Assembly: GCA_002946415.1 (NCBI GenBank)
Contig: NJPS01000041.1
Location: 248,001 to 312,000 of the forward strand
Direction: 5' to 3'
Source of the DNA: Rutstroemia sp. NJR-2017a BVV2
Lineage: Eukaryota; Ascomycota; Leotiomycetes; Helotiales; Rutstroemiaceae
DNA length: 64,000 nt
Shown here piece by piece: positions 24,626 to 45,600 of the stretch. Every line of letters begins with the position of its first letter. Within the stretch, counting starts at the first letter, position 1. The notes beneath the pieces were generated by a model that was not told the DNA's origin, ran no database searches, and worked only from the letters and a program-made list of their open reading frames with translations. Both the position numbers and the translations under genes were made by a program.

Positions 24626-26448
24626 GCTGGGTACTTTGCTTGGTTGAGTTTGCTGGATGTTGACAATGATTTTAAAATGTGTAAAGAAGCCACTGATAAA
24701 CCAGAATTGTCACTCTCCCAGGAGTGGCGTTACTTTTGAGTTCAATGAATGTGATTCGGGTAGGAGATAGATTGGGGTATTTCATACTTTTTCTCTCTTG
24801 ACAAATGAAAGAATCTGGGAAACGTTGAAATATGAGGAGAAGATGTAGTAAGAGGTTTGTGGTGCAGTGGTCCTGCCATTGTAAAGGTGAAATGAAGCTA
24901 AGGAAACACGCCAGAGCATTATGGTCAACAACGTCAAAAACTTTCATCTGCAGATATTCTTGCGCTAGAATTAGAATGAGTGTAAAGTAAGTATTACCGA
25001 CCTACAAAGAAATCCTGTAACTGGTAAGTAGTTTATGTAGTTACTGACATTTCCCCTCGAAATGGCCCAACTACAGGTCATTGAAGCTCCTAGACCCCCA
25101 AATGCTCATCAAGGAACAGCGCATGAAAGGGACTAGAAGCTGCAACACTGGCGAGATTGTCAAGATACTTGAGATGTACGACCAAGATGCTACGTCGCAC
25201 GAGGGAAATAGTTCACTGAACAAGCAGTCTCTGTTGTCCATCTCTTCTCCTAGGGCTTCTCCTCCAACCAGGATATGGCGAACCCTTACAATTCTCGGTA
25301 AACTTGCGACCTCACTCGCCATCAAATCGAGATCGGCGACATCAATATCGCCACCAAAATGATGGGAATTCAGACCCTCGGTGTAATTACTAACCTGTTC
25401 TGCAAGTTGAAGATTGTTACCACATAAAAATATTCTTGACGCCTCGCCAGCGAGCGCTCCACAGCGATGAGAGGCAGATCATCCGTACTTACAGCAGCCA
25501 ACAAAGACGCGCTCTTATGAGATATCTTGGCGACCAAGCACCGCGGAAATCAGTGCTGCCAGAAGTGCACTATTTGCACTGCACAAGAGACCATATGAAT
25601 CACGTAGACCATCTACGCAATCTACATAAATCACGTAGGCCGTCTGCAGAGTTCACCTAGATCAGGCTCTATCCATTTGCTGACGTTCAAATCGCACTGC
25701 CAGCATACGGCCGTTCGCACGCGCTACGGCCCGTACATTCCCTAGCTCTTGCATGCACTAATAGTGTAATCCGATGCTCTCCCAAACGGCCGCTGGTTCC
25801 ACTATTCCACTCCGGACAGAACTCCACGGACATCCTCGAAATTCGAAAGTACCGCCCCGCCACGAAGCTTACCATGCGACGCCAAGCGCAGTGGTTCTCT
25901 GGCCTCAAAGGTTGAAACAATGGAGGAGCTGCATTTTTCGCGTCTAGAAACAGGCTCGGCGGCAAAGAGGCCTTGAAGCGATATCTGTTCTAGTATTTCA
26001 GGTAGACAACATTTGAGTAAATGAAGGGGGTCGACGGGTTCTTCGATTTGCGAGGCGAACTGCACTACGAAGCTTTGAGAGCCGGAAGAACTTTCTCATG
26101 GCCGGGGAAGACGAAGACAGCAGAGACAGCGAAGACACAAGAACGAAGCAGTAAAGAATTTTGGCAGCAGAGAAAAGGTAATGACTCGGAGATAGATAGA
26201 TTGACTAGGCAGGGAAATGAAGTTCAATTGAGGAGAAGTGAAAGGAAAAAGCGAAAAAAATAAGCAGTGAAGTGAAATAATAAATTAGGATCACTAGGAT
26301 CACTAGGATCACCAGGATCACCAAAAGATGTGAATATCGTAATGAGTGCTTAGATACTTATTCTCACTTACATTCGCAAAAAAGTCTGTATCGTTGAAGT
26401 GTGGCCTAAGAATGGAAAGTTGCAAAAAGTGGAGAAAAAAAGTAGAGA
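24626..26448. other. Accessory intergenic region with coding-like remnants
   Basis: On the minus strand about 25440-25070 reads as a coding-like stretch ('IFLCGNNLQLAEQ', 'LPRIVRVRHILVGGEAL') resembling the middle of fungal F-box-type or similar proteins. No start, end or splice partners were found. A further open frame at 25802-26065 on the minus strand is unrecognised. Both look like fragments rather than genes. The right part is A-rich and includes a short repeat. Confidence 0.35.
26287..26322 (+). repeat. 9-nt tandem repeat, four copies
   Basis: AGGATCACT occurs twice, then AGGATCACC twice, head to tail. It lies about 130 bp beyond the 3' end of the tRNA gene. Confidence 0.9.
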
Positions 26449-26568
26449 CACTCCGCGTGGGACTCGAACTGTATGGGGTTAGCGTGAATTAATAAGTGGA
26501 GCCATGTATTACATACCCCACAACCTCAAGATTAGAAGTCTTGCGCGCTACCATTGCGCCAGCGGAGC
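26449..26568 (-). tRNA. trnR-UCU: tRNA-Arg(UCU) interrupted in the T arm
   Basis: Read on the minus strand, every tRNA element is present. The acceptor stem is GCTCCGC/GCGGAGT with one G-T pair, followed by TG at positions 8-9. The D stem is GCGC/GCGC around loop AATGGTA. The anticodon stem is CAAGA/TCTTG around loop CTTCTAA, so the anticodon is TCT (Arg). The variable loop is AGGTT, the T stem GTGGG/CCCAC and the T loop TTCGAGT, with discriminator G. All stems pair fully. The anticodon loop is uninterrupted, so the usual 37/38 intron is absent. Instead, 48 nt (26469-26516) lie between the 5' strand of the T stem and the T loop. Removing them gives a normal 72-nt tRNA. The A box (TGGCGCAATGG) is intact. 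The B box keeps TTCGAGTCC, but its first G is replaced by the A that ends the insert. A run of seven T follows within about 12 nt of the 3' end, a good Pol III terminator. Confidence 0.92.
26469..26516 (-). other. 48-nt GT-AG insertion in tRNA-Arg(UCU) with spliceosomal intron signals
   Basis: On the transcribed strand the insert begins GTATGT, contains GCTAAC about 10 nt from its end, and ends ATACAG. These are the standard fungal mRNA 5' site, branch site and 3' site, and 48 nt is a normal mRNA intron length in this window (46-65 nt are common). Eukaryotic nuclear tRNA introns are normally removed by the tRNA endonuclease from position 37/38. An intron between positions 53 and 54 does not fit that pathway. 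The signals are seen; removal by the spliceosome is inferred. Confidence 0.65.
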
Positions 26569-27574
26569 TGGATGACTTTGGATGGGCAAATGTCGCTTAA
26601 TTGATCTTATATATAACGAATGATGTGCCCCACCCGATTTGGCGCCCACGCTTATTTGGCTTCCTCACGCAACGAAACACACCTTAGAAAGCAGGGCATT
26701 AAAAATACCATTACCACAAGTTAGAAAACATTTACAGCTCCGCCACCACAAGTCAGAAGCAAGGGCGAATCGTCGGCTCGCTTAAAATTTCCCCAGTTCA
26801 CTCTTGCTCCAGCCCCTCGATCAGTTGCGAACAAGTGCTTGGCACCTACGCAGTTCTTCACATCATCTGGAGAGACATATCAAATAGTTGCAATTATGAT
26901 TTACATGGTCGTCATTTCTCATCCTATGATGCCATCAAACGCGTGAGTCTTCCTGAATATGATCATGCCGGTGGCCTACGACACTTGGCAGCCGACTAGG
27001 AATTTCGACCTCCGAGGACTGAGAAGGAGAGCACCGATACCTTGGGATTATCTTTCTGTCAGAATGAATTATTATTACGTTCACATACTGTCTTGATTTA
27101 CATCTACAGGTGTGCTAAGACCACATGGCACACTCAATTGTAGGCTTCTCAACTACCGCGAAACTGCAATCTATTATTATATGCGACTACGAAGCAGAAT
27201 ATGGAGTTTCTCGCTCGAATCTGAACTGCCTTCCGCCAAATCGTTCTCGTGCGCCTGTAGTTTTGTGTTTTTTTGGTTCATGTAGGACGAGTGCCACATT
27301 GCCGACGATATTGCTGACACTATGTTCAACGACATACAGATGTTTTTTGGGTAGTATTCAAAGCTATGAGTACCCGTCCTATAACATGGTGTTGGAAGAT
27401 GGAAGAGGTGTTCGTATTTGTCGATCGCTGAGGTGGAAGTATACAGCACCACGCTTCGAGGCCATTCTCAGTAGAATCTTTGTTAGCGATATGGTAGATC
27501 TCGTGGTACTCAAGGAGGGACTATCCCTAGGTTCGGAGTTGCGTCCCATGTACAGCGCACGAGGATATACGACA
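26569..27574. other. Intergenic, possible extra 3' coding of the glycosyltransferase
   Basis: The minus strand at 27379-27606 is open in another frame and could be a spliced C-terminal extension of the glycosyltransferase, using a GTGAGA donor near 27591. No convincing acceptor was found. The plus-strand frame at 27125-27628 is its antisense. The rest shows nothing. Confidence 0.35.
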
Positions 27575-42603: not shown

Positions 42604-45600
42604 ATGGATGATACTCCAGACTCACCTACCACTTCGCACTCTTCTAGATCAGGCTTAACCGCCATGTTTTCAAAGACGCGCGCAGTACGAAAACCTGCCA
42701 GAGACTCTGCGACAGCTTCATTGAAAAGCACCGAGAGCGATACTGCTACCCATGGAGTTCGCGCATCTCTGGACGGCGCGCTAGAGAAGCTTAAGAGTGG
42801 ATTGACGGAGGATGATTCCACTGATTCTAGTGGAGCAAATGGGCTGAAGAAATTGGTGTCGAAGCCATTCGAGTCGAAACGCAGGCGAAAACAGCGCGAA
42901 GACGAGGAGCGCGAATTGGAAGAGGTCGCTCGTGGTAGGAGTGTCGCGGAGAGGGGCACTTTGAAAGAAGAGAGCAGGAATTCGAGCTTTATCAGACAAA
43001 ACTCTGGCGATGGAGATGGTAGCAGTTTGCTAACCTACGATTCGGAGACTGAGTCGTGAGTTATCCACTTTCAACTTTCTGCAATTCACCTTCTAAATTT
43101 AACCGTATTACTTTTGTACGTACGCATCGTACGGTTTATTGTTCTCCTTTTTTGTTTCCCTTTTTCCTCGTCCTCACCGACTTCTGAATCCAGCGCGGTT
43201 ATTTATGGGGTTCCGTTCATTACCATGAGACATGGTTCAGAGTGCGAGCTCGGAACGTTCCATTTGAGGAGAACCCTCAGTCTTGGCCTTCACAAACCAC
43301 AAACCTCAAACTCCAAACCTGCACAGGCTCATCCCATCAACAAAATAAACAAGAACGTCAGTCAGTCAATCTTGCATTGCAGTCAAGTTGTACCCCGAAG
43401 ATCACTACCTTCCCGTCCGATCAAGGTGCATACTTGTACTATTTCTCCATCTCATTTCGTCATATCTCCTCCTTTTGCCTCCTCACCTCACCTCGCATAT
43501 TTTTAGATTTACAGCCTGCATTAACTTGTGGAGTGAATTGACTTTCGTTTGGATCTTTTTTGTTCTAACTCAAATTGCCACGGTAATAGGCCACTCGACA
43601 CACCTCCACCGCTATCGACGCATCCTTCGCACATTGGATATCTTACAACATCTTCCCCACTTATAAACTCATCGACGGTTCCTGACACTGGGCCATTGCA
43701 TGCACACTTAGACGGCGTTGCTAAGTCTTCAACATTTCCGAACAGCACAGACAGTCTGGCTGCCTCCGAATCTTCCAACGGTACCCCCTCGCAGAAGCTT
43801 CGAGCTCCCACCGACGGACCTCTGAGACGTTCACCCTCTCCAGTTGGTCGATTAAAGGAGGTCTTCAAACCTAAACGCGGAACAAGTCCCAATACAAGTC
43901 CAGACCGCAAGGCTGGAGGGGGAGGGGCAGACTCATCGTTGAGTACTAAGGACGGTGGGGCTGATTCCAGGAGGGGGAGTGTGAGTGCGAAATTTGGTTC
44001 ATTAATTTCTGATATACCATTGCCACAGGCCAAGCCCAGATCCACAGCATCGTCTCCCGAAAGGCCGCGATCTGGTAAGGTCAAACCGATAGACACCACC
44101 GCACGGCCTCAAACTCCACCATCCACAGACAAGCCAGCTCCTATCATTGTTAATACCCCCCCGACACCCACTGATCCAGCTTCTCCTCGATTTCCAATTT
44201 CAAATCCCAACTCCCCGACTGCCGCGGGCTCAAATGTCGTTACATCTCCTTCGGGAAACATGATCTCACATCGACGAATTCGATCAGGTTCTGCTACTTT
44301 GGGACCTAGTAAGCTTTCGAACATCACTTCTGCACCATTAACACCTACTCCTGAGAACGGCGCGACTACTCCCGGTCAGGGTGGTTTCTTTTCGTCGGTC
44401 TTTTCTGCGGCGCAGAACGCGGCGAATACCTTGAGCAACAGTATTACGAACACGTCGAGCCCATCTGGTGGAACAAGAAGTAGAAGCGGAGCGCAGGAAG
44501 CACAGCAGATACAGACACCGCAGGTTGAAAGTCCGGAGGTGGAGGCGATAGGAGAACAACCGGATTCTGGAAATTTTATGGAAGAGAAAGAACTTGCGGT
44601 AAAGACTCTAGGCCAAGGAGATTTAAGTTTAAGCCATTTAGGAATCACAGAAGACACGAATACCACCATGCCGAAATCTACCACGGACGACTCCCGAGGG
44701 CGATCGGACTCCGCAAGAGAGGAAGACACATTTGCTGGCCGCGCTGTAACCGCACCCAATATTCTGACCGGAGAAAACCTGGAAGCCGTTTCCACGCCGC
44801 AAGTAGAGGACTTACAATCAATCGCGCGTCCGCGATCGAACTATGAACCAAGCACAGCTGGAGACCAGACACCGCCCAATGGAAGCGTTTTTGAAGGTAA
44901 GACCGGGATCCATAGGAGTGGAAGCATCCGAAGTGCCATAAATCATAGGAAGAGAGGTAGCTCCGCGGCGACTGGAACAACGATCGGGACCGCAATAGCC
45001 GCAGCTAATTCATCAATAGCAAATCCAAGCCAGGGGACTCCAAAAATTACAGGTTTCGCCGTCGCAAGTAAGAAGAGGAATCGTGATTTCCATGCGCTGT
45101 TTCGAAGTGTCCCGGAGGACGATTACCTGATCGAGGATTATAGCTGTGCCCTACAACGAGAAATTTTAGCGCATGGAAGACTTTATGTTTCTGAGGGCCA
45201 TCTGTGTTTTAGCAGTAACATCTTTGGTTGGGTTACAACATTAGTTATGAGCTTCGACGAGATTGTATCCGTGGAAAAAAGGAGCACGGCTATGATCTTC
45301 AAGAATGGTTTGATGATATCGACATTACACTCGAAAAATATCTTTGCCAGTTTTACAAGTCGTGACTCTACATATGACCTTATTGTAGGTATATGGAAGA
45401 TTGGACATCCAAGTCTGCGAAGCTCACTGAACGGTGTTACTCTTGAAGAAACGGGTGGTGGTGATAAAACCGAAAAGGATGATGGAATTGTTCCATCACG
45501 TCCTGGCAGTGCATCTCAATCGTCGGATGATAGCGAAGGTGCTGATGGAGACATCTATGACGAAGATGAAGACGATGAGGATGGCATGAGCTTCACTCAA

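Follow-up and report, generated by a model that had tools for sequence, protein, structure and literature searches.

The tRNA-Arg(UCU) gene in the stretch of Rutstroemia sp. NJR-2017a BVV2 DNA that we analysed (64,000 nucleotides, hereafter the window) carries an insert that is very probably a U2-type spliceosomal intron. At least 14 nuclear tRNA genes of this genome are interrupted in this way, and their exons would be joined by the spliceosome, probably in RNA polymerase III (Pol III) transcripts. The splicing of tRNAs, by a protein endonuclease and a ligase, and that of mRNAs, by the spliceosome, are taught as separate processes. If our reading is true, the mRNA machine processes short tRNA transcripts of about 120-140 nt and is needed for decoding. 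We consider it likely that tRNA maturation in this fungal lineage cannot do without the spliceosome, that this machine acts on Pol III pre-tRNAs even where no more than four tRNA bases precede the first intron (Arg-CCU), that Arg-UCU, Ser-AGA, Thr-AGU and Pro-UGG would leave their codons unread without it, that some pre-tRNAs would need two unrelated splicing machines, and that intron gain or loss would be ongoing.

The anatomy of the window gene is read directly from the DNA:

26568..26449, minus strand: the whole tRNA-Arg(UCU) gene, by match to the Rfam tRNA model
26517..26568, minus strand: exon 1 (nt 1-53, acceptor 5' strand to T stem 5' strand), 52 nt, by the Rfam match and by ARAGORN on the joined product
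26534..26536, minus strand: anticodon UCU, read in the sequence and given as tct by ARAGORN on the joined product
26469..26516, minus strand: spliceosome-type intron, 48 nt, between nt 53 and 54, by sequence and deletion scoring
26511..26516, minus strand: 5' splice site GTATGT, by sequence
26478..26483, minus strand: branch site GCTAAC, its branch A 10 nt ahead of the last intron base, by sequence
26469..26471, minus strand: 3' splice site CAG, by sequence
26449..26468, minus strand: exon 2 (T loop to discriminator base), 20 nt, by the Rfam match and by ARAGORN on the joined product
26435..26441, minus strand: T7 run, Pol III terminator, 8 nt past the discriminator base, by sequence
26608..26615, minus strand: TATA element TATATATA, 47 nt upstream of exon 1, by TATA score

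The gene (26449-26568, minus strand) matches the Rfam tRNA model over positions 1-71 of 71 with 48.5 bits (gathering score 29), and ARAGORN run on the window calls no tRNA. When the exons are joined, they give a 72-nt product in which every stem is paired and which ARAGORN calls tRNA-Arg(tct). An earlier note on this DNA had described a tRNA-Arg(UCU) cut between T stem and T loop rather than at 37/38, a 48-nt insert with GTATGT, GCTAAC and CAG, a perfect 72-nt tRNA upon its excision and a T7 Pol III terminator 3' of the gene, and each of these points holds: the insert lies at 53/54, its three signals fall within 26516-26469 (minus strand) and the terminator is at 26441-26435. Out of 1638 deletions of 30-89 nt, judged by cloverleaf score only, two share the top score of 33/33; they leave an identical product and one of them is the GT...AG deletion. 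The note had also recognised the mRNA intron pattern of this fungus in the insert, and the same signals are indeed present in two mRNA introns of the GRAM/VASt gene of the window, the protein of which is 98% identical to one of Rutstroemia sp. NJR-2017a BBW and 93% to one of Clarireedia jacksonii, whose genus is assigned to Rutstroemiaceae, Leotiomycetes:

43056..43589, plus strand: comparison mRNA intron, GTGAGT...TTCTAAC...TAG, 534 nt, by tblastn with P0001
46211..46260, plus strand: comparison mRNA intron, GTATTT...GCTAAC...TAG, 50 nt, by tblastn with P0001

The window gene does not stand alone. Over the assembly (43.4 Mb, 79 contigs), the Rfam tRNA search gave 62 matches, the best 63 of 1404 candidates having been scored; T-loop pattern searches (rows picked by eye for their likeness to a tRNA 3' end, plus a few others) and sequence inspection added 29 tRNA places, and a gene on contig C43 one more. 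Some contig stretches are exact duplicates (C25 and C74 agree base for base over the 9.9 kb compared, and the compared tRNA regions of C8/C37 and of C56/C71 are identical), so gene counts need de-duplication: the 92 rows, less seven on duplicated contigs (identity checked for five, matching coordinates for two), make 85 places, including two doubtful ones, L051 and L060. An insert of the form GT...YTAAY...YAG is carried by 14 of these 85 places, a lower bound, as the patterns can detect a gene only if its T loop is standard and lies close to a T run. The 14 split genes belong to seven families and use seven positions, none of them 37/38:

Arg-UCU, two genes (the window gene and L003): insert at 53/54
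Ser-AGA, three genes (L031, L032, L040): insert between variable arm and T stem
Trp, one gene of two (L052): insert at 6/7
Arg-CCU, one gene (L061): insert at 4/5, and an anticodon-loop intron too
Pro-UGG, three genes (L094, L095, L112): insert at 10/11, and an anticodon-loop intron too
Thr-AGU, three genes (L106, L110, L111): insert at 23/24, and an anticodon-loop intron too
Ile-UAU, one gene (L116): insert at 13/14, and an anticodon-loop intron too

Two of the Ser introns are identical, which leaves 13 distinct introns. Two Ser-AGA genes (L133, C43:1254700-1256500) stand in opposite orientation about 1.5 kb apart, with identical introns and different trailers, a layout that suggests duplication or gene conversion on C43. 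No Asp, Phe, Tyr, Ile-AAU, Leu-UAA or Gly-UCC gene is among the tRNA places seen, whose anticodon loops were read by eye; such genes may be split (for instance in the T loop or the 3' part, where the patterns would be blind to them) or simply have been missed.

What do these introns look like? They are 48-65 nt long and begin with GTAAGN (eight), GTCAGT (two, both Thr), GTATGT, GTGAGT or GTAATT (one each), and they end with CAG (ten) or TAG (three). A U2-type 5' splice site (GT...AG, U1-like) is found in all 13, and so is YTAAY at fungal spacing, its branch A lying 10-18 nt before the last base. The fungal norm for the branch site, as given in passages of PMC5832005, is RCTRAY at 6-36 nt from the 3' end; this strict form is present in nine of the 13 introns and missing from four. 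When the inner bases are shuffled, the chance of a YTAAY at 6-36 nt from the 3' end is 0.06-0.54 per intron, with a product of 3.5e-8, a figure that flatters, just as the motif counts are biased, because some of the genes were recognised by their motifs.

A test free of motifs points to the same junctions. In 13 genes, all deletions of 30-89 nt that leave a product of 70-90 nt were scored by stem pairs and invariant bases, the anticodon-loop introns having been removed beforehand at hand-chosen boundaries. In none of the 13 distinct genes does any deletion outscore the GT...AG one. Joined products reach 33/33 cloverleaf points in ten of the 13 and 32 in both Ser genes and in Ile-UAU, which keeps four of five anticodon pairs, and ARAGORN assigns the expected isotype to every one. 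Ties involve one to six of the 1638 deletions, giving one to five products, in 11 genes; the two Ser genes have 109 and 106 tied deletions and no unique junction, because the score ignores the variable arm. ARAGORN, run on the Ser genes, places an anticodon-loop intron instead, and the Ser assignment rests on the motifs together with an anticodon arm that is complete without any anticodon-loop intron. The split Trp gene reads GGACTG/GTAAGA...TTCTAAC...CAACAG/CTGGCGC (slashes at the exon ends), and its joined product equals the uninterrupted Trp paralogue L030 at 72 of 72 bases. The exon ends are therefore fixed, and one intron was gained or lost between the paralogues; it is because the two Trp genes found differ by this one intron that gain or loss would be ongoing. 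If its paralogue works, the split Trp gene is dispensable.

The surroundings of the genes bear on which polymerase transcribes them. At -55..-25 of exon 1, at least 7/8 on a simple TATA score is reached in 11 of the 14 split genes, those without a strong TATA being one Ser, one Thr and the Ile gene; a score of 7/8 in the same interval is found in 7 of 22 ordinary tRNA genes of the genome versus 1 of 110 stretches further upstream. Measured from the would-be gene start if only exon 2 were real, the count falls to 0 of 14. Where the intron lies at nt 4-13, it is five of six genes from exon 1 versus none of six from exon 2, and the contrast is informative for these six only, because elsewhere the second region falls inside the tRNA. 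Past the tRNA 3' end, a run of at least five T that would serve as terminator starts within 5-24 nt in all 14 split genes. Judged by the TATA and terminator positions, the start expected for Pol III would coincide with the short first exons. The internal promoter is another matter: an intron at nt 4-13 either leaves 52-59 nt from the start to the A box or falls within that box, and in Arg-UCU it is the B box that is interrupted. Split A or B boxes, or a displaced A box, could make for weaker Pol III promoters. In Arg-UCU the final AG of the intron leaves AGTTCGAGTCC, which resembles a B box, and in two of the three Pro-UGG genes the intron end leaves TAGTTCAGTGG, an A-box-like string; both may act as replacement promoter boxes.

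Could the introns be spliceosomal and the transcripts come from Pol II, or the tRNA be cut from a longer spliced RNA? Such an origin would supply the spliceosome with its usual substrate, and it would suit introns at nt 4-13 that split the A box or part it from the start. Nevertheless, we hold it to be unlikely: the TATA element sits at ordinary tRNA-gene distance, terminators of at least five T follow 14 of 14 genes, and no stop-to-stop ORF of at least 70 aa overlaps the window tRNA gene. We infer instead that Pol III transcribes the split genes and that the spliceosome joins their exons. It counts against this reading that short uncapped transcripts are not usually spliced. The steps would run as follows. 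Pol III would start upstream of exon 1, positioned by the TATA element, and stop at the run of at least five T. The major spliceosome would then recognise GT, YTAAY and YAG in the pre-tRNA as it does in a short mRNA intron, and the exons would be joined. For Pro-UGG, Thr-AGU, Ile-UAU and Arg-CCU, tRNA endonuclease and ligase would also remove the anticodon-loop intron; because these four families carry this second intron, one transcript would need both machines.

Are the split genes alive? In a DNA search of the genome with the window stretch, a second Arg-UCU gene, L003 on contig C43, was the only other place. It has the same tRNA body and, at the same nucleotide as in the window gene, a 65-nt insert GTAAGT...GCTAAC...CAG. 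The two introns are 52% identical, shuffled pairs being 47 +- 3% identical. Between the two acceptor stems, four pairs are changed on both strands and a fifth on a single strand, and each gene keeps seven of seven pairs. The strands of this stem sit in different exons and yet covary; selection therefore acted on the joined molecule. A genome search with the joined Arg-UCU 72-mer found two places, both split, and no uninterrupted copy; likewise, searches with joined queries, in which the best candidates were scored, gave no uninterrupted Ser-AGA, Thr-AGU or Pro-UGG gene. Provided that neither the assembly nor the search has missed an intact gene, splicing is required, and we take it to be probably essential for Arg-UCU, Ser-AGA, Thr-AGU and Pro-UGG alike. 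In eight of the eleven long ORFs listed, AGA, the codon of tRNA-Arg(UCU), is the commonest Arg codon (67/317).

These results speak to the two comparisons that the earlier note had proposed, an alignment of the Arg-UCU copies and a check for intact intronless ones: this genome has one further Arg-UCU gene, cut at the identical site by an insert that shares the type but differs in sequence, and no intact UCU gene was found, both places being split. They also go against the alternative that the note had named, a dead tRNA with an insertion, as do the covariation across the intron and the exact match of the Trp paralogue. In its general form, the idea that all split genes are dead and that intact genes lie elsewhere draws on an imperfect assembly with exact duplicate contigs, on searches that score best candidates only, on the intact Trp copy L030, and on joined-query searches that covered four families; for Arg-CCU and Ile-UAU, the T-loop patterns showed one place each for the 3' ends. 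The idea is very unlikely all the same: the exons keep full pairing with covariation and stay nearly identical while the introns diverge (48-77% identity), promoter and terminator are kept, and for four families no intact copy was found.

Introns outside the anticodon loop have precedents. According to parts of PMC9602550 and PMC3978253, other lineages have them in D, T and acceptor arms; in the red alga Cyanidioschyzon merolae, in archaea and in the Guillardia nucleomorph such ectopic introns interrupt D and T arms, even of tRNA-Ile(UAU), and occur alongside an anticodon-loop intron, and those of C. merolae and archaea use a bulge-helix-bulge and the tRNA endonuclease. One could therefore suppose, since several split genes here also bear ordinary anticodon-loop introns, that the tRNA splicing endonuclease cuts the new ones at a bulge-helix-bulge as well. 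This is extremely unlikely. By a simple fixed-register test, a four-pair central helix with flanking helices is present at the junction in 0 of 13 genes (at best three of four pairs form, mostly two), and cleavage by this enzyme would leave GT...YTAAY...YAG, the mRNA splice signals, unexplained. Nor do the inserts use the eukaryotic (non-algal) endonuclease site, 37/38, as they lie at 4/5, 6/7, 10/11, 13/14, 23/24, between variable arm and T stem, and at 53/54. Canonical 37/38 introns likewise interrupt nuclear tRNA genes, those of four split families among them, but they differ in position and in signals: GT-AG occurs, within a shift of two, in 1 of 38 distinct anticodon-loop introns placed by ARAGORN, that one in the doubtful L051 (the 38 include L040, by ARAGORN's Ser placement, and exclude genes with an ARAGORN position outside 36-41). 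Self-splicing introns are rejected, 48-65 nt being too short for them. A common mobile intron sequence is rejected too: blastn among the 13 introns gave one 11-base match only, between two Thr introns, and the one other place matched by the window stretch in the genome was the exon of the paralogue.

Introns of fungal small RNAs are among the closest parallels to our spliceosomal reading. U6 is itself a Pol III transcript, and S. pombe splices the intron of its own U6. In this genome, the U6 gene aligns with the full length of its model in 106 nt, is thus without an intron, and was dropped as a further carrier. In fungi, according to passages of PMC5832005, U3 snoRNA and U6 snRNA have spliceosomal introns that resemble those described here: they sit in short structured RNAs, were gained at several positions, and have GT-AG ends and RCTRAY about 15 nt from the 3' end. 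According to the same passages, no small structured RNAs other than U3 and U6 were known at the time to be frequently interrupted; here, unlike there, the hosts are tRNAs of seven families. A full-text search of the literature, with most subscription papers and all preprints outside it, brought up no paper in which a nuclear tRNA gene carries a spliceosomal intron; the phrase matched in PMC13247085 was 'non-spliceosomal splicing of tRNAs'. The Arg-UCU pattern had 0 matches in a collection of genome contigs and 0 in one of viral contigs, neither of them fungal. The novelty would thus be a known type of intron in a class of host genes where it was not known before, its absence from print being not proven.

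Several questions become testable with such genes: whether splicing depends on Pol II and a cap, by which route introns enter genes whose structure is so extremely constrained, and whether the capacity of the spliceosome sets a limit to translation. The noncanonical-intron search of tRNAscan-SE 2.0 is described, in the relevant part of PMC8450103, for archaeal tRNAs and with bulge-helix-bulge models, which suggests that tRNAs of this kind are being missed in annotation.

Two further observations concern tRNA-like sequences of this genome. The doubtful L051 and L060 (C34:1185243-1185693) are tandem tRNA-like genes with long anticodon-region inserts and a common GATCTACCGTGAGTA string; there is one acceptor-stem mismatch, and ARAGORN calls one of them tRNA-Met and the other nothing. 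Finally, a repeated element occurs at C22:51946, C29:50423, C46:1704, C73:1363 and 3532, and C41:2470300, often close to the end of a contig. It carries GGTTCGACCCCGAAA, which resembles a B box and reads AGTTCGA in C41, and after it a T7 run, and is perhaps a Pol III-type repeat.
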